A DNA stretch of 24,182 nucleotides from a virus. A program made the translations under genes and the position numbers. Positions 8,617 through 19,218 of this stretch are shown piece after piece. The notes under the pieces were generated by a model. That model was not told the origin of the DNA, did no database searches, and was given only the letters and a program-made list of their open reading frames with translations. The stretch spans positions 1-24,182 of the IMG/VR virus record IMGVR_UViG_3300047352_000504; one strand, 5' to 3'. The first letter of the stretch is position 1. Each line of letters begins with the position of its first letter.

Positions 8617-10155
8617 ATGGCGGTCCCTAGTATTGCATTAGCTTATCGACGTTCTGCGTTGATGACTGCGACAAAAGTAACAGTTAAAGCTCCAGACGAA
8701 AAGGTATTAAAGGCGAGAGATAACTTCCAAGATTTCTGCGTAGCAATGGGCAAAGCTCCTGCTAAGCATATGTTGGAGTGGCACAGTGAATTATGTACAG
8801 GAGTAGATAGTGAATGTCTATTAGGAGTAGGAGGACCAAATACTGCGATCCTCGCGCCACGCGGATCTGCGAAGAGCACTGTCCTTGGTTTGTTCGCTGC
8901 TTGGATGATCGGTCGGCATACTGCTGCTGGCAAGATGCTGAGGATTCTGTACATCGCTTATATGGTGGACATTAGTCGTGCTAAGTCAGCAACGATTAAA
9001 GGTATTCTCACGTCGGCAAAATATCGTGAGATATTTCCAATGGTTAGACTATCCAAGATCAAAAGATCGGATGAGTATTGGAGTATTGACTATGAATTCG
9101 CGGGAATTGATACCGCAGGTGAAGAAGCATTTACCATTGCTTGTGGAGGTCTCAAAGGCGCAATTACCTCTAAGCGGTCTCAGCTCGTGCTCATTGATGA
9201 CCCTATCAAGTCCGCTGCTTCGATTAACAATCCTGACATTCGCCGTGAAATGGAGCAAACGTGGAGTAATGTTATCGCTCCTACAATGTTTCAAGGTGCA
9301 AGGGCTATCTGTCTGGGCACCCGCTTTCACTTTGACGATATCCACGCAACCCTCTTTGTCCCTAAAAATAACTGGAAACAAATTATTCAAAAAGCAGTCA
9401 TAACAGACGCTGAGGGGAGACAACGTTCGTATTGGCCTGAGTTCTGGTCAATGAAGTACCTAAACGAACGCAAGATGGAGGATCGTGTTGCATTTGCGTA
9501 CCAGTACCTCAACACCGCTGTTCGTAATACTGATGTTGGTATCTCACCTGAGCTAATTGTCAAAGGAGAAGTACCTGATGAGTACGACTGCCTTGGTGTA
9601 GGTATTGACCTTAGTGCTGGTCTATCTGAAAAGAACGACTGGACAGTAATGACATTAGGTGGCATCAAAGAAGGTAAGATCTATCTTATTGATCAACGGC
9701 GTGCTCGATCTATGGGCAACCTTGAGAAGATGGATCAGTTGTGCGAAATGCTAGCTGACTGGAACATCGTGCTTGAAAACGATGAGGGTCAGTTCTTCCC
9801 TACGATGTCACCCTGCATAATCTGGCCGGAAGCTGTTGCATATCAGAACTCATTTGAAGGTGACTTCAAACGTGTAATGATTGAGAATCGTGCGCTATAT
9901 AACCTAACGGTATCCCCAGTCAAAGGATTTAAAGGTGACAAGTTAGCACGACTGCGTGGTGTATTGGGACTATACGAAAACCGTAAGATCGTCTGGAACA
10001 AGTGGCGCAAGTGGAACATTCTCGAAGAGGAGCTGCTCAACTTTGGTCATTCAACTCACGACGACGCTGTTGATTCAATGGTGCTAACTATAGGAGGACT
10101 CTTGAGAAGAGGCGCATTACAATTAGACTACAATAGTGATAGCTTTGAACTCTAA
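8617..10155 (+). CDS. terL: Terminase large subunit (packaging ATPase and nuclease)
   Basis: The enzyme pumps DNA into the prohead and cuts it. Visible motifs in order: Walker A variant APRGSAKST (80-88), Walker B LVLIDDP (190-196), a coupling motif CLGTRFHFDD (232-241), and a RNase H-like nuclease with GIDLSAG (Asp331) and a C-terminal HDDAVD (481-486) carrying acidic metal ligands. The 512-residue length is normal for the family. The start at 8617 lacks a strong ribosome binding site; an alternative ATG is at 8662. The candidate small terminase lies just upstream and the portal downstream, the usual order. ATPase and nuclease residues all look intact. Confidence 0.95.
   Translation: MAVPSIALAYRRSALMTATKVTVKAPDEKVLKARDNFQDFCVAMGKAPAKHMLEWHSELCTGVDSECLLGVGGPNTAILAPRGSAKSTVLGLFAAWMIGRHTAAGKMLRILYIAYMVDISRAKSATIKGILTSAKYREIFPMVRLSKIKRSDEYWSIDYEFAGIDTAGEEAFTIACGGLKGAITSKRSQLVLIDDPIKSAASINNPDIRREMEQTWSNVIAPTMFQGARAICLGTRFHFDDIHATLFVPKNNWKQIIQKAVITDAEGRQRSYWPEFWSMKYLNERKMEDRVAFAYQYLNTAVRNTDVGISPELIVKGEVPDEYDCLGVGIDLSAGLSEKNDWTVMTLGGIKEGKIYLIDQRRARSMGNLEKMDQLCEMLADWNIVLENDEGQFFPTMSPCIIWPEAVAYQNSFEGDFKRVMIENRALYNLTVSPVKGFKGDKLARLRGVLGLYENRKIVWNKWRKWNILEEELLNFGHSTHDDAVDSMVLTIGGLLRRGALQLDYNSDSFEL
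10129..10134 (+). promoter_or_regulatory. Candidate -10 element TACAAT inside the end of the terminase gene
   Basis: TACAAT (followed by A) ends 28 nt before the ATG at 10163. A second TACAAT lies 11 nt earlier at 10118-10123. Both are inside coding sequence, so chance or codon constraint is a real alternative. Confidence 0.3.
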
Positions 10156-10162
10156 GTGAAAG

Positions 10163-11521
10163 ATGCCTCTCACACCAGAAGAAGAAAAACGCCGTAAAGC
10201 TGGCGATAAAGACGCACTCGGATATTTTGATCAGAAAGGTGGAGCTAAAAACTCTTCTGCTTTCGGCACGCCAACTACTACAGAAGCTCCTGGCGTCAGT
10301 GCACCTAAAAAGAAAGAGGCAACTGATTATCGCGGAACTACTTATAAGAATCGTCCAGACATTGCCGAACGCCCTAATCTGGGTAAGGAAGAATATAAAA
10401 GCCGCCGTCAATCTCAAACACAAACCAGCAATCAAATTGATAGGTTTGGTCTTGAGGGAGCTAAGGCACGGGCAAATGCTGTTGGTAACTTAAAGAATTA
10501 CGATCTCCGTGGCTTTGGTCGCGGGGGCGCTGGCGGCAACAGTGAAACTGAAGTGGGTAAGGGTAGAGCAATCCTTAGTAGGAGTGATGCCAAAGGGTTG
10601 GTAAATCACGGCAAACATACTGCTGCCGACGTGTTGTCGTATGCGCAAGGCTTGAACGAGGATGGTAAAAAAGGCGGCTTTGCTGGTGAAAACGCTTTGA
10701 ATTTCCTGCAAAATAAAACTAATCAAACTAAGAGGTCAATAAAGAAAGGCTACCTTTCTACAGCAGAGATCGGTGAACGGGACGGTAAGCCACGTGCAAC
10801 TCCTAAAGGTCTAGATCCCGACCTGGCTAGTGAAGCTTTCCAAGGTAAAGACTTCGGCAACCGGGATATGAAGCGCTATGAGAAATTGTACAAGGAGAAG
10901 TACGGCACAAAGCCTCCTAAAGGTACGAAACCTCCTAAGCCAGGATTCACTGTAGAGGATGGTCAGATTGTAAATCCCGGTAGTGGAAGCAGTGGCGGTA
11001 ATAGCGGAAGCAACACCACTTCCCAAGCTACTAGTAACAACGTAGGAGGAAACAAGTACGAGAATATTCTCAACGACTCTATGAACAATAACTCTGGAGT
11101 CATTACTAATGATTTCAGTGATAACCGCATCAGTTTCCAAAGCGGATCAAACACTTATAACTTCAGCGGTGGAAGCAATGGCGGTTCTCCAGCGAGCCAA
11201 ATGGCAATGATTCCCGATAATGAAACTCTTGGTGATTCCATTCAAAGCCAAGTTGCTCGTTCTGCAGTAAATATGAATCTACAGAAACAAGCAGACAAAG
11301 GGTTCAATCCATCTGCCACAGCTATTGCTAATAACAAAACGCAAGGCGGCGGTGCACAGATGGGTGAGCTAAACGATTACTTGTACTCTTCTCCTCAATT
11401 TATGTTTGATCAATCAGACATTCAGTTGAGTCACGCAATGGGTAATCAAGCGCAGATGGATGGCTATCGTTATCCTAAGTTCACTATGAAAGGAATTAAC
11501 GACGATAAAGACAAGGACTGA
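10163..11521 (+). CDS. Low-complexity unknown protein between terminase and portal, 452 aa
   Basis: The N-terminal third is strongly basic and hydrophilic. A possibly folded section spans about 125-215 (ILSRSDAKGLVNHGKHTAADVLSYAQGL, then TAEIGERDGKP). A Lys/Pro linker (about 245-262, repeated KPPKGTKPPKPG) leads to a Ser/Gly/Asn/Thr-rich section (270-345), and the end is helical and Met/Gln-containing. No catalytic motif is recognised. It is 7 nt downstream of the terminase stop and 28 nt upstream of the portal. A head-associated or internal protein is a guess from gene order. Confidence 0.72.
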   Translation: MPLTPEEEKRRKAGDKDALGYFDQKGGAKNSSAFGTPTTTEAPGVSAPKKKEATDYRGTTYKNRPDIAERPNLGKEEYKSRRQSQTQTSNQIDRFGLEGAKARANAVGNLKNYDLRGFGRGGAGGNSETEVGKGRAILSRSDAKGLVNHGKHTAADVLSYAQGLNEDGKKGGFAGENALNFLQNKTNQTKRSIKKGYLSTAEIGERDGKPRATPKGLDPDLASEAFQGKDFGNRDMKRYEKLYKEKYGTKPPKGTKPPKPGFTVEDGQIVNPGSGSSGGNSGSNTTSQATSNNVGGNKYENILNDSMNNNSGVITNDFSDNRISFQSGSNTYNFSGGSNGGSPASQMAMIPDNETLGDSIQSQVARSAVNMNLQKQADKGFNPSATAIANNKTQGGGAQMGELNDYLYSSPQFMFDQSDIQLSHAMGNQAQMDGYRYPKFTMKGINDDKDKD

Positions 11522-11549: not shown

Positions 11550-13793
11550 ATGAGCAACTCAGTACAGTCGCAATTTGATCAGATCTTAACTGCTGCTAAA
11601 GAGCGACGTGGTGATATGTCGGTAGACACGATGATCGTGTCTTCACATCTTGCTCAGATGCGGACTTTTATGCTGCGTCGCGGTATTGAGTTCTTTGCTG
11701 ATCAAGATAGCTTCGGTCAACGCACACAGTTCCTTGAAAAGATCTGTGAGCAGAATATGCTTGAGATGAAGTTTGAGAGCATTGTTGACTACTTCCTTTG
11801 TGACGGTCAAGGTCTCTTCTACTTCCGCCCATCAGGCGACGAGTATCAACTGCTCTACTTTCCTAAAGATAGCTATCGAGCATACAGAGATCAAACCGGA
11901 GAACTTGAAAGCGTTGTACTGATCTATAGCTTTGACGTACGTCAGCCTAATGCTATTGATATGTATGCCCAGCAGAATGGGCGTGGTGGTCGCAAGAAGT
12001 ATATTCGGCTGAAGGTATACAAAGATCGTATTGAACAGACAATCTCTGATGAGAAGATTGAGTTTGAGAACGATATGGGCCAGATGCCTATGACAATGCC
12101 TGGTCAGACTGAGACACTAACCAACAGCCTGGGTTTCATTCCTGCTGTTGAAGTGTTCAATCATATGGATTGCACAGGCGGCAGTACAGGTAATGGTGAA
12201 TTCGACTGGATGTCACACCAGATCCTGTATCACGATGAGCTAGTACGCAACATTCGTAAGAACATCAAGTTCTTCGGCAACCCAACTTTGGTGTCTAGCC
12301 GTCCTAAGCACGATCTGCTGGACTCTGGTGACGAGAATACCTTCCGTCCAACCATCAGTTCACAAGCAGGATTCTTTGCACAGAACCGTCCGAGCAGCAG
12401 GGTTAGCGAACCTTTCGGTATGTCTCCCGGTGTTGATGGACAAATCAAGGTTCCGCGTGTGATTGCCAACCTTGAACCTACTGATCGTGTCAGTTATATG
12501 ACGCCTGATGCAGTCTCAGGCGACCAGAACTTGTATGTAAAACAGTACCGCTCTGAGATTCGTCTTGCACTTGGTGGTGTTGATGACATTGATATTGGTA
12601 CCGCGTCTACTGCTTATGAGATTAAAACTCTCTACGGTCGTGTTGCAGCTACTGCAGAGAAGAAAGCAAAAGCCTTGTTTACTTACGGGTTATGCAGACT
12701 TTTCGGTATGATGATTCACTACGAAGAGGTTCTGTTTAAGAGGTCTTTTGCAGCTGCTATTGGTCTTGAAGAACCGACAATTCCATTGCCAGAAGAGTTT
12801 GAAGATCCAGCAGAATATGAAGCAGCTGGTGCTGAACACGTCAAGTTGATGGAGAAGTTTTCTGCAGAGTTAGAAGAATCTATCCGTGCTACACTGGACT
12901 CAGGCGAAATGCCTCCAGGAATTATCGGACTTATCCCTGACGGCAGCACGAAAGTGCGTTGGCGGTGGACGGGAGAAGTGTTTGAGGAGAGTACAGACGA
13001 TATTCTGAACAACAGTATTGTCGTCCGAAATCTCCAAGAACTAGGTGTTGATTCTATTGAAGCACTTAAGTATCTTTTCCCTGGGAAGACCGACGAAGAA
13101 CGAGCCGCTATGTTAAGCGGATATCCGTTCAGGATGGTCCAGCAAACACAACAATCATTAAACTCATTTATCGGATTGCTCGGTCAGTTGTATCAACTAC
13201 CGCATCCACAGACACCAGAACTACCATTGGCGTCTGACCCGAATCTTGACATAACAGGATTCTTATATCGATCTCTTGAATTTTTACGTAAGGAGTTAAG
13301 TTACAGTGGAAGGTACAAACCAAGCGGTGGCGTCGACGCCCCAAGCACCCTCAGTGATGCCGACCAGCTCCGCGCCGAGCGTGGTCAGCCAACCCGCGAT
13401 GAGCCAGCCCCAAGCCTCCCCGGCTTATCAGGTCCAGGTTCCGCAAATGCCTCAACAGGTAGCCCCTTCGGCCCCGGCCCCGCAAGCTTCGGCTCCGGCG
13501 GGCAACCCCTGGCAGGAGGCGTTCCAGGCTCTGAGCGCGTCGCTGAATACAAGCAGCCCGTCCCAGGCCCCGGCAGCGTACTCGGCTTACCAGACACCGA
13601 CACCCCAAGCAGCTACACAGGTCAGCTTCCCCTCTCAGCAAATTTCGGCAGCCCCGACCTACAGTCCCCAAGTTTCAACCCAGGCTTACTCGGCTCCGGC
13701 TTACCAGCCCGCCCAGCAGCAGATGGTAGAAGCTCAGGCTCCGGCGGAAGTAAGCGACGGGTATCTAAGCGCAATCAGCGACGACAGTCTTGA
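11550..13793 (+). CDS. Portal protein with long disordered C-terminal tail
   Basis: This is the dodecameric ring at the head vertex through which DNA passes and to which terminase binds. Support: 747 residues, position after terminase and before scaffold and capsid, and portal-like sequence with helical N-terminal part (MRTFMLRRGIEFFADQD), a beta-rich wing (GLFYFRPSGDEYQLLYFPKD) and a long stem and crown helical part (KTLYGRVAATAEKKAKALF). Residues 586-747 are Pro/Gly/Ser-rich, look disordered and end very basic (SKRRVSKRNQRRQS). That tail is encoded by bases that also encode the first 162 residues of the next gene in another frame. The large size recalls N4-like portals, but this is a memory-based comparison. 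Confidence 0.85.
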   Translation: MSNSVQSQFDQILTAAKERRGDMSVDTMIVSSHLAQMRTFMLRRGIEFFADQDSFGQRTQFLEKICEQNMLEMKFESIVDYFLCDGQGLFYFRPSGDEYQLLYFPKDSYRAYRDQTGELESVVLIYSFDVRQPNAIDMYAQQNGRGGRKKYIRLKVYKDRIEQTISDEKIEFENDMGQMPMTMPGQTETLTNSLGFIPAVEVFNHMDCTGGSTGNGEFDWMSHQILYHDELVRNIRKNIKFFGNPTLVSSRPKHDLLDSGDENTFRPTISSQAGFFAQNRPSSRVSEPFGMSPGVDGQIKVPRVIANLEPTDRVSYMTPDAVSGDQNLYVKQYRSEIRLALGGVDDIDIGTASTAYEIKTLYGRVAATAEKKAKALFTYGLCRLFGMMIHYEEVLFKRSFAAAIGLEEPTIPLPEEFEDPAEYEAAGAEHVKLMEKFSAELEESIRATLDSGEMPPGIIGLIPDGSTKVRWRWTGEVFEESTDDILNNSIVVRNLQELGVDSIEALKYLFPGKTDEERAAMLSGYPFRMVQQTQQSLNSFIGLLGQLYQLPHPQTPELPLASDPNLDITGFLYRSLEFLRKELSYSGRYKPSGGVDAPSTLSDADQLRAERGQPTRDEPAPSLPGLSGPGSANASTGSPFGPGPASFGSGGQPLAGGVPGSERVAEYKQPVPGPGSVLGLPDTDTPSSYTGQLPLSANFGSPDLQSPSFNPGLLGSGLPARPAADGRSSGSGGSKRRVSKRNQRRQS
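13306..13793 (+). other. 488-nt dual-coding overlap of portal and scaffold genes
   Basis: Two + strand frames are open across the whole segment. One encodes the portal tail (Gly/Pro/Ser-rich) and the other the scaffold N-terminus (Pro/Ala/Gln-rich). The segment is visibly richer in C and G than sequence on either side. Both products are low-complexity, as expected where two frames constrain each other. Confidence 0.75.
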
Positions 13794-14292
13794 AGTTCTC
13801 CAGCACTTTGGCGCTGAGGCTCCTGCTCTGCTGAACACTTATGCCTGTGCTGTTGAAGATGCTCTGATTGAGCAAGTGCAAGTTGCACAGTCTCAGTCTC
13901 TGATGCTTGAAGCAGCTGGTGAAGAGCGTGAGGCAATGAACCTGATGCTCACCCACCCCGACGTTCTTGCTGATTACGTCAACGACTTCTTCGGTCCCGA
14001 AGGTCCTTATCCGACGCCTACCGCTGAGGAAGAGGCTTACATCCGTGAAGCAGTTGCTCGCGAGAACTTTGAGAATGAGATCCAACAGCAGGAAGCTGCA
14101 TACAACGTTCCCCGGAACTTCCAGCGTCCTGAGATGGAAATGCCTACTCCCGGTCGTGCACAGAACGTTGCTAACGACTTCTGGGGTGGTTTCTCTCAGA
14201 TGATGGAAAGCAACCCTGAGCAAGCTTGGCAGTATCTGGCACAAGCTCCTCAAGGCGCAATGCAAGCCAAGATGCTGGTTCAGGACTCCTGA
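13306..14292 (+). CDS. Candidate scaffolding protein, starting inside the portal gene
   Basis: The GTG start at 13306 has a strong ribosome binding site AAGGAG (13290-13295) at 10 nt, which supports initiation within the portal gene. Residues 1-148 are Pro/Ala/Gln/Ser-rich and disordered, with one helical motif NPWQEAFQALSASL (67-80). Residues 150-265 are acidic and helical (LLNTYACAVEDALIEQVQVA, EEEAYIREAVARENFENEIQ). The C-terminus (286-328) is helical with FWGGFSQMMESNPEQAW. Acidic, helical, partly disordered character between portal and capsid is typical of scaffolds that template prohead assembly, but no family signature proves it. Bases are much richer in G+C in the overlap with portal. 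Confidence 0.7.
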   Translation: MEGTNQAVASTPQAPSVMPTSSAPSVVSQPAMSQPQASPAYQVQVPQMPQQVAPSAPAPQASAPAGNPWQEAFQALSASLNTSSPSQAPAAYSAYQTPTPQAATQVSFPSQQISAAPTYSPQVSTQAYSAPAYQPAQQQMVEAQAPAEVSDGYLSAISDDSLEVLQHFGAEAPALLNTYACAVEDALIEQVQVAQSQSLMLEAAGEEREAMNLMLTHPDVLADYVNDFFGPEGPYPTPTAEEEAYIREAVARENFENEIQQQEAAYNVPRNFQRPEMEMPTPGRAQNVANDFWGGFSQMMESNPEQAWQYLAQAPQGAMQAKMLVQDS

Positions 14293-15246: not shown

Positions 15247-16185
15247 ATGACACAACCAAAAGCTTCAGGAGATAGTGTACGTGCTTATCTTCGGGACATT
15301 GGACGTGTACCTTTGCTTGAGCACGATGAAGAAATTCTGCTTGGCCGACAGGTGCAACGGCTAATGGAATTGGAAGAGATGAAGTCCGAGATGGAACTGG
15401 ATAATGACGGATTAGCTGAAGCTATGGAGTTACCAGTCAAACAAATCAAACGGGAACTACGTGAAGGCAGAAAAGCAAAAGAGAAGATGGTTACGGCAAA
15501 CCTCCGTCTCGTCGTCTCGGTCGCTAAGAAATATACCAAGCGTAATATGGAGCTTCTGGATATCATCCAGGAAGGTACGATCGGGCTCGTTCGCGGCGTC
15601 GAGAAGTTTGATCCTGGTCGTGGGTATAAGTTTTCTACTTACGCTTATTGGTGGATACGCCAAGGGATCACCCGTGCGATTGCTGAAAAATCGAGGGCAA
15701 TCCGGCTACCGATCCACGTTACTGAGAATCTCAACCGACTTAAGAAAGCCCAGCGTGAGCTGAGTCAGATGACTGGTGAGATGCCCAATGTATTCCAGCT
15801 GTCTGAGCACCTTGATTTGACAGTAGAAGAGATCAAAGATTTGATGTGCAAAGCTCGCCAACCTACCTCTCTAGAGATTAAGATAGGGGAGAACAGGGAC
15901 ACAGCTCTGATCGATCTTCTCGAAGACGAATCTCAGTTACCTGAAATGCTGCTTGAACGCTCTTGTATCAAAGAAGATATTCGTGAGCTAATAAGTGAAC
16001 TGCCCGAAATGCAAGCAGCAGTTATCAGTATGAGGTACGGCATCGGTGAAGAGATACTTGAACCTATGTCAATGACAGCAATTGGTCAGGTATTAAATAT
16101 GAGCCGTGACCGTGTTCGCACTCTTGAGCACAAAGCACTCCGTCACCTTAAAGAGAAGTCCGATAAGATCAGTGAATATCTCTAA
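15247..16185 (+). CDS. RNA polymerase sigma-70 factor, cyanobacterial group 2 type
   Basis: This complete 312-residue sigma factor directs host RNA polymerase to selected promoters. Region 1.2 spans about 8-40 (DSVRAYLRDIGRVPLL). Region 2 is 79-150 (ANLRLVVSVAKKY, LLDIIQEGTIGLVRGVEKFD, YKFSTYAYWWIRQGITRAI), keeping Trp135-Trp136 and the -10 contact pair Gln139/Thr142. Region 3 is about 154-235 with the cyanobacterial-style SLEIKIGENRDTALIDLLED. Region 4 is 245-305 with helix-turn-helix MSRDRVRTLEHKALRHLK. In the -35-reading helix Asp288 and Thr292 replace the usual Glu and Gln (E585 and Q589 in E. coli numbering). A ribosome binding site GGAAGAGG precedes the ATG. Length and motifs match cyanobacterial group 2 sigmas, indicating acquisition from a host. 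Confidence 0.96.
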   Translation: MTQPKASGDSVRAYLRDIGRVPLLEHDEEILLGRQVQRLMELEEMKSEMELDNDGLAEAMELPVKQIKRELREGRKAKEKMVTANLRLVVSVAKKYTKRNMELLDIIQEGTIGLVRGVEKFDPGRGYKFSTYAYWWIRQGITRAIAEKSRAIRLPIHVTENLNRLKKAQRELSQMTGEMPNVFQLSEHLDLTVEEIKDLMCKARQPTSLEIKIGENRDTALIDLLEDESQLPEMLLERSCIKEDIRELISELPEMQAAVISMRYGIGEEILEPMSMTAIGQVLNMSRDRVRTLEHKALRHLKEKSDKISEYL

Positions 16186-18036: not shown

Positions 18037-18063
18037 CCTTTTAGCTTACGGAGTTAGCGATCT

Positions 18064-19218
18064 ATGTGGATCGATAATGATTTTCCGAAGCTTCTTGGTG
18101 CAGAGCTTTACCGTCCTCATCCTGCCTACATCATTGAGATGGCAGTTGAGCCTGTGGTGGTCCACGATTTTTCCAAGCAACCCGGCCAGACCGTGCAGCT
18201 TGATCGTTACCGCTTCTGGGGTAAGCCTGGCACTAAGGAGTCCCGTGAGCGTACTGCTGACCAAACTTTGGGTTCGGCATCCGCTCGTAACATTGTGAAG
18301 GACAAGGTGCTGGTTACTCTCCGTGAGTACACCGGACCTGCTGACAGCCGCGACGCTGCACAACCTTCTACTTTCAAAGTTGCACGTGAGACCCTGATCA
18401 CTGCACAACGTCTCCTGCTCGATACTGGAAACCTCAACGTCTTCCACCAGTCCATCGGTTCTCTGACCCTGCTCGACGACTATCGTCGTTGGCGCGATCG
18501 GGTGTTCGCTAACGAACTCCTGAAAGCTGAAGCCTGTGGTGCTGCTTCCGAAGACCAAGGTGGTTACTACCTGCCCGGTGGTAAAGAGAAAGGCGCTTCC
18601 GCTACTGGCGACAACATTGATGTCACCTATGCAGCTGGCGAGTCTGCCAAGTTCGATGTGAAGACTGACCTTCTTGAGGTCGTCAAAGATATGCGCAAGC
18701 GGAACGTTCCGACGTTCGCTGACGGTTATTACCGTTGCATCGTGGATCCGACCGCGATGATGCACCTCCGCCAGAACAGCGACTTCCGTGAAATCGCTCG
18801 TTACCCTGGCACCGGGATGATCAACCCAATGCAGCCCGCTCTGCAGCCGAACGCCAATTTCTACCAAGGAATGGGTCCTGCTTACGGCCAAGCTGGTTTC
18901 GTTGCTGGTCAACCTGTTATGCCGACCGGCTTCCTCTTTGAGGGTGTCCGTTGGTTCGAGTCCACCAACCTGCCTGAGCAGTCTTACAACCTGACGATCA
19001 CCGACGAGAGCGGTGCTGCTGCCGATTACGGCGCTGCACAGTTGATCTTCTTTGGTCCTCAAGCTGTAGGCGTAGGCATCGGTGGTAACAACGCCCAGAT
19101 CCTCCTGAACAACAACGATGACTTCTCACGATTCATCATTATGATCTGGAGCCTGTTTGCCGGATTTGAAACCCTGAATAAGGATTTCATCACGGTTGGT
19201 TACTCTTTCGTTTATTGA
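18064..19218 (+). CDS. Major capsid protein, N4 gp56-like
   Basis: This is the shell-forming head protein. The 384 residues lack signals or enzyme motifs. The pattern resembles the N4 gp56-type HK97-fold capsid family: a conserved basic-aromatic element (GQTVQLDRYRFWGKPG, 41-56), a central helix with leucines (TLITAQRLLLDTGN), the peptide DGYYRCIVDPTAMMHL (220-235) like the family's Tyr-xxx-Ile-His-Pro region, and a late beta part (GFLFEGVRWFESTN, 289-302) with a family-like terminal section (FETLNKDFITVGYSFVY). Codons are strongly C-ending and unlike those of neighbouring genes, as expected for the most abundant protein. A good ribosome binding site ACGGAG precedes the ATG. Transcribed with the next gene, ending at an intrinsic terminator. 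Confidence 0.87.
   Translation: MWIDNDFPKLLGAELYRPHPAYIIEMAVEPVVVHDFSKQPGQTVQLDRYRFWGKPGTKESRERTADQTLGSASARNIVKDKVLVTLREYTGPADSRDAAQPSTFKVARETLITAQRLLLDTGNLNVFHQSIGSLTLLDDYRRWRDRVFANELLKAEACGAASEDQGGYYLPGGKEKGASATGDNIDVTYAAGESAKFDVKTDLLEVVKDMRKRNVPTFADGYYRCIVDPTAMMHLRQNSDFREIARYPGTGMINPMQPALQPNANFYQGMGPAYGQAGFVAGQPVMPTGFLFEGVRWFESTNLPEQSYNLTITDESGAAADYGAAQLIFFGPQAVGVGIGGNNAQILLNNNDDFSRFIIMIWSLFAGFETLNKDFITVGYSFVY

Follow-up and report, generated by a model that had tools for sequence, protein, structure and literature searches.

The locus and its genes

The DNA analysed here, referred to at its full length of 24,182 nt as the window, is the virus fragment IMGVR_UViG_3300047352_000504. It is a piece of an S-EIV1-like phage genome: among 50,697 phage records, the best match to the portal protein of the window, and the only convincing one, is that of Synechococcus phage S-EIV1, at 49% identity. 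The portal gene has the neighbors expected of it, with the gene for the terminase large subunit (8617-10155) upstream and that for the major head protein downstream. Its 3' end is shared with the beginning of a second open reading frame, whose product is predicted to be a scaffold protein (Table 1).

An overlap of this length in two frames was described in the initial annotation, and both open reading frames lie exactly as given there. The low complexity and the raised G+C that had been pointed out in the shared region are likewise present. The portal tail is rich in Pro, Gly, and Ser and the scaffold N terminus in Pro, Gln, Ala, and Ser, both regions are disordered in structural models, and G+C reaches 0.61 within the overlap versus 0.42-0.47 in the upstream part of the portal gene.

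Table 1. Positions of the features discussed, in the numbering of the window
Feature	Position	Strand	Remarks
Portal gene, whole open reading frame	11550-13793	+	747 aa
Portal core, residues 1-585	11550-13304	+	Single-frame coding; matches phrog_20475 and, by Foldseek, portals
Portal C-terminal tail, residues 586-747 and stop	13305-13793	+	P/G/S-rich, predicted disordered, basic end GSKRRVSKRNQRRQS
Shine-Dalgarno-like AAGGAG within the portal gene (codons K581-E582)	13290-13295	+	10 nt before the scaffold GTG
TAA stop in the scaffold frame	13297-13299	+	Just upstream of the scaffold start; read in the sequence
Predicted scaffold (capsid assembly) protein	13306-14292	+	328 aa; GTG start; +1 frame relative to portal; homologues in five clades
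Dual-coding overlap	13306-13793	+	488 nt; both reading frames open, with selection data
Start of the overlap, scaffold codons 1-40	13306-13425	+	Portal frame more constrained (portal NN/SN 0.45, 0.34; scaffold NN/NS 0.84, 0.50)
Scaffold residues 67-81 NPWQEAFQALSASLN	13504-13548	+	Sole predicted helix in the overlap; invariant NPW motif
Major head protein	18064-19218		Matches phrog_1357

Several other open reading frames of the window are recorded here as observations in their own right. One of 452 aa between the terminase and portal genes (10163-11521) matches no family, and hardly any of the fetched loci contain a relative of it. A complete sigma factor of the sigma-70 type (regions 1.2, 2, 3, and 4) is encoded at 15247-16185, between the scaffold and capsid protein genes; it occurs only in the loci of the marine clade and is absent from the S-EIV1 stretch. 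A frame of 338 aa lies open antisense to the major capsid gene (18046-19062, minus strand), and an antisense frame is annotated at the matching place in S-EIV1; that of the window is probably a by-product of codon usage.

The portal protein

The identification of the upstream gene as a portal gene, proposed from the sequence at the outset, is borne out by the predicted fold of its product. The best Foldseek match of the AlphaFold model is the portal of cyanophage P-SCSP1u (E=3e-7), the gp8 portal of T7 follows at E=1.5e-6, and all 37 PDB entries matched at E<=0.001 are portals or complexes that contain one, obtained with a model of modest confidence (mean pLDDT 53.9). By sequence, residues 9-717 match phrog_20475, a family of virion structural proteins of head and packaging, at E=1.3e-181, so that the profile reaches into the tail. 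Residues 618-747 have pLDDT <50 and are predicted to be disordered. The end of the tail is basic throughout the phage group described below, with clade medians of +5 to +7.5 for the net charge of the last 15 residues in five of five clades.

The predicted scaffold protein

Phage scaffold proteins are usually encoded between the portal and capsid protein genes and are helical proteins with a helical C terminus and a disordered N terminus. The second gene of the overlap sits between those of portal and major capsid protein, with other genes intervening before the latter in the window; in S-EIV1 it follows that of portal, and a single gene separates it from that of the major capsid protein. The AlphaFold model of its product (mean pLDDT 60) is all-helical and flexible with a helical C terminus, residues 1-150 being disordered except for a helix at 68-81 that carries the NPW motif. 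Because of this position in S-EIV1 and this shape, scaffold is the best assignment that gene order and model suggest, and "predicted scaffold" is used here as a label only, placing the protein in no named family. Of the earlier view of the gene as a scaffold candidate, the fit of position and helical model stands, while a match in sequence or fold to a known scaffold family is lacking, none being found in Pfam, PHROGs, PDB sequences, or PDB folds.

That same negative result favors another reading, which accepts the dual coding but gives the second protein a role other than scaffolding, such as that of an internal head protein or a chaperone. The location of the gene after portal and before the major capsid protein, the all-helical model with its disordered N terminus, and the presence of the protein alongside portal in every clade make such a reading unlikely, if still one to be reckoned with, and the protein is treated below as a predicted scaffold.

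S-EIV1 (KJ410740.1) offers the closest comparison among named phages. Like the window, it has a portal gene (57537-59840, with a core 49% identical) and a scaffold start inside that gene, near 59287, giving an overlap of 554 nt in the +1 register. Unlike the reading given here, its GenBank record lists hypothetical proteins only and does not annotate the overlap. The GenBank protein AHV82225.1 (59863-60264), which starts after the portal stop, corresponds to the C-terminal ~134 aa of the predicted scaffold; read from the conserved start near 59287, the latter has 325 aa, so that the GenBank version is shorter by ~190 codons. The record thus shows that in this phage group the scaffold gene can be cut short by annotation. 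A major capsid protein 68% identical to that of the window (18064-19218) is encoded at 60859-61989 on the plus strand of S-EIV1. GenBank shows at that locus a minus-strand frame (60784-61545) and a short plus-strand frame (61540-62010), and the capsid gene seems to have been missed.

Where the scaffold frame begins

The record of S-EIV1 represents a simple alternative, namely that only the portal frame is functional and that the scaffold starts past the portal stop, as in the GenBank entry (59863-60264). The mostly disordered state of scaffold residues 1-150 agrees with it, but several features of the sequence do not. The NPW motif and adjoining scaffold residues are invariant across clades. 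The conserved domain of the scaffold begins near residue 151, and the window offers no in-frame start codon between residues 140 and 191, so that the scaffold must start inside the overlap.

A GTG start with a good ribosome binding site inside the portal gene had been proposed, and an AAGGAG is indeed found 10 nt upstream of it. GTG is the scaffold start codon in 90 of 90 sequences of the marine clade. The AAGGAG is kept in 89 of 90 marine and 107 of 108 S-EIV1-like sequences (196/198; the sequences are related and the counts not independent), although AAG makes up only 35-46% of the Lys codons in them and GAG only 32-37% of the Glu codons. It is absent from all 31 sequences of clades 3-5, where the scaffold nonetheless begins at a fixed start codon, ATG or GTG. 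A ribosome binding site of this strength inside the portal gene is thus a trait of two clades and not of the overlap as such, nor universal to its design.

The retention of this internal AAGGAG with a GTG or ATG in two clades also speaks against the portal-only alternative, and it bears on a different one, a programmed +1 frameshift within the overlap that would yield a portal-scaffold fusion as the main or an additional product. The scaffold frame is indeed +1 to portal and open throughout, and a fusion would tie the two proteins together. The conserved start codon with its AAGGAG in two clades nevertheless indicates initiation, and the scaffold frame is closed by a stop at the position of window 13297-13299, just before the start, in 225 of 228 distinct sequences; no slippery site came to light either, short of a systematic search. 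Frameshifting is a very unlikely explanation. As evidence of function that stop is weak, because the portal residues Leu-Ser/Thr favor a stop at this place.

Conservation across the phage group

The relatives considered here come from three protein or profile scans, one unsorted scan of viral contigs with a degenerate pattern, one scan of genome contigs, and the S-EIV1 record. The portal core is found in 353 loci, whose overlaps comprise 230 distinct sequences. These fall into five clades, one of marine relatives of the window (90 sequences), one of S-EIV1-like sequences (109), and clades 3 (22), 4 (7), and 5 (2), the portal cores of the last three being 45-60% identical to that of the window or of S-EIV1. 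Contigs of the group also occur in bacterial metagenome bins (MAGs) labelled Crocinitomicaceae, Rhodobacteraceae, Blastopirellula, and others (L231-L235); misbinned phage contigs are more likely here than real hosts.

Both frames are open in 228 of the 230 distinct sequences, in the same +1 register and from the same starting point, over overlaps of ~455-680 nt. The two exceptions look like assembly defects. One is a single contig represented by two loci (L175 and L348; IMGVR_UViG_3300047546_001245), with a portal-frame stop <=10 nt from the contig end; the other (L251) has a frameshift within the conserved core by which both readings are lost, probably an assembly error. No relative without the overlap was seen among the loci from the protein and profile, degenerate-pattern, and genome-contig scans or among the phage records.

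A newly overprinted portal tail, which the initial annotation had offered as one explanation, does not agree with this distribution. The overlap is present in all five clades, between which portal-core identity falls as low as 46%; this rules out recent overprinting, and the overlap thus predates the split of the clades. By these comparisons it is real and ancient dual coding.

The same distribution bears on the possibility that only the scaffold frame is real, the portal ending near 13300 and its tail being a leftover open frame. The region is G+C-rich and of low complexity, hence poorer in stop codons, and the tail is predicted to be disordered, all of which such a reading would accommodate. 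Against it, a portal ending near 13300, the case that had been set beforehand as contradicting dual coding, was looked for and is absent from every relative found; moreover, the basic C terminus is kept in all clades, and the PHROG portal family spans the tail. As to which of the two frames is the older, codon usage fits the portal tail better in 81 of 81 marine, 95 of 98 S-EIV1-like, 12 of 20 clade 3, 6 of 6 clade 4, and 0 of 2 clade 5 sequences, a pattern that third-position G+C alone could cause.

Selection on both frames

Comparison of related genomes for constraint in each frame had been proposed as a check on the overlap. Differences between close relatives were classed by their effect in each of the two frames (dNN, dSN, and dNS), and nulls were obtained from simulations in which these sequences evolved at the measured transition bias with only one frame constrained. 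Because of this bias, the neutral portal-frame ratio is ~0.7 by simulation and not 1.0, and the statements on selection made here use the simulated null.

Within the overlap, substitutions affecting both proteins are less frequent than those affecting a single one. The portal-frame ratio dNN/dSN is 0.26 (95% interval 0.13-0.44) for close pairs of the marine clade, 0.38 (0.26-0.54) for S-EIV1-like pairs, and 0.22 (0.14-0.32) for those of clade 3; the corresponding scaffold-frame ratios dNN/dNS are 0.19 (0.09-0.35), 0.19, and 0.23. As a control, the same classing was applied to the part of the scaffold gene beyond the portal stop. The ratio for the portal pseudo-frame there is 1.25-1.53 in marine and S-EIV1-like pairs; for clade 3 it is 1.46 (1.21-1.80) in the larger set and 0.61, with no usable interval, in a set of three pairs.

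The simulated nulls, with means of 0.69-0.79 overall, never reach the values observed in the marine clade or in the first 150 codons of the S-EIV1-like clade. When only the scaffold is constrained, the marine portal-frame ratio has a mean of 0.74 and a minimum of 0.59, versus 0.25 observed, and when only portal is constrained, the scaffold-frame ratio has a mean of 0.79 and a minimum of 0.61, versus 0.19 observed. In the first 150 codons of the S-EIV1-like clade, 0.40 (portal) and 0.21 (scaffold) compare with null means of 0.69-0.73. When the S-EIV1-like overlap is taken in full, the portal-frame ratio lies closer to its null (0.56 versus 0.70 with a minimum of 0.58), since the final part of that overlap shows no portal-frame constraint. 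In addition, a stop arises in the unprotected frame of 44-63% of the descendants simulated from close pairs under constraint on one frame only.

These results show purifying selection on each frame, separable from that on the other, and the check thus finds both frames constrained. The unusually long dual-coding overlap of head genes that had been claimed is, by this evidence, genuine. For the scaffold-only alternative, the portal-frame ratio lies far from its null and about half of simulated descendants would have acquired a portal-frame stop; together with the absence of shortened portals, this leaves it extremely improbable. Portal-only coding is highly improbable as well, the scaffold-frame ratios of 0.19 and 0.21 falling below the minima of the portal-only null (0.60-0.63). 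A chance open frame is ruled out by these nulls together with synonymous codon shuffles of the window alone, which leave the portal frame open in 0.45% of cases with the scaffold protein held fixed and the scaffold frame in 1.6% with the portal protein held fixed; with the distinct sequences described above, the two frames are open on the same DNA beyond chance.

Lowered synonymous change could also reflect an RNA structure or regulatory element instead of two proteins, and synonymous divergence is in fact lowered across the whole overlap: at third positions of the scaffold frame, divergence between marine pairs rises from 0.16-0.26 in the overlap to 0.33-0.45 past the portal stop. Constraint at the nucleotide level, however, would not leave double-nonsynonymous changes scarcer than either class of single-frame nonsynonymous change, nor would it keep both frames free of stops or end at the portal stop. 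A search of Rfam gave no match within the window, and there is little probability left to an RNA element as the sole cause.

Where along the overlap each protein is constrained differs. The portal frame is the more constrained over the first codons of the overlap (Table 1). In the region of the NPW helix (codons 61-80) the scaffold frame dominates, with a scaffold NN/NS of 0.17 and a portal NN/SN of 1.00, and it is also dominant toward the end of the overlap. The two proteins thus partly divide the shared DNA between them. In the S-EIV1-like clade, scaffold codons 161-180 show no portal-frame constraint (ratio 2.31), and at its very end the portal frame of this clade may simply be read on, passively, until a stop is reached.

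How the shared DNA may be used

Taken together, these comparisons make it very probable that the overlap encodes two functional, independently started proteins on one mRNA, with both frames under purifying selection. A single late mRNA would carry the portal reading. Ribosomes that translate from 11550 to 13793 would produce a portal whose C-terminal ~160 residues form a disordered tail with a basic end, which would be expected on the head-interior (crown) side. Other ribosomes would initiate within the portal gene at 13306, with help, in this clade, from the AAGGAG, and continue in the +1 frame as far as 14292, yielding a scaffold whose disordered N-terminal half is encoded in portal-tail DNA. 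Internal initiation of this kind would allow scaffold to be made in excess over portal.

P22 requires scaffold for the incorporation of its portal (PMC9320234). The initiator complex of lambda consists of portal, protease, and scaffold (PMC3224144). It is plausible, as had been suggested, that the overlap couples or matches the synthesis of portal and scaffold. More tentatively, and with some doubt, the shared DNA may itself be a coupling device, in which the tail and the scaffold arm co-evolve as partners in procapsid nucleation, or in which portal translation through the scaffold start sets the portal-to-scaffold ratio, or both.

The phages related to cyanophage S-EIV1 are widespread and little studied. 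That two core head genes have ~490-600 nt in common, kept down to 46% identity in a genome of ~80 kb, fits poorly with simple compression of the genome. With its hundreds of sequences, the group is a natural setting in which to ask why overlaps persist, how two disordered regions share a code, and whether an overlap sets the stoichiometry of assembly.

Comparison with known systems

Long overlaps between genes in different frames are unusual; 84% of those counted in a survey of viral reference genomes, whatever their frame, are <50 nt (PMC7017920). Overlapping genes are already known as a kind, and no report of an out-of-frame portal/scaffold overlap was found in the open-access literature, a search that the S-EIV1 genome paper lay outside; novelty is accordingly not proven.

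Three known systems resemble the present one in part. In the C/Nu3 pair of lambda, an internal start in the protease gene gives the scaffold, so that here too a head-assembly gene with an internal start yields a scaffold protein. Nu3, however, is read in the same frame and is the C-terminal part of C, whereas in the window the partner is portal, the frames are different, and the two sequences are unrelated. The Rz/Rz1 spanin genes of lambda, a tailed phage with double-stranded DNA, are functionally paired and overlap out of frame, as the genes described here do. They differ in being lysis genes with a shorter overlap, one fully nested in the other, whereas in the window head-morphogenesis genes overlap end to start by ~490 nt.

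Long overlaps are also known from other viruses, such as those of the polymerase and surface genes of HBV and of p19/p22 in Tombusvirus (reviewed in PMC8227390). With these the overlap of the window shares selection on two frames, low synonymous divergence, and biased composition. The viruses in question are small and have RNA genomes or replicate by reverse transcription, and the newer of the two frames usually encodes an accessory protein and not a structural one; in the phage group of the window, both products are predicted to act in head assembly, and the phage is tailed, with a genome of ~80 kb.
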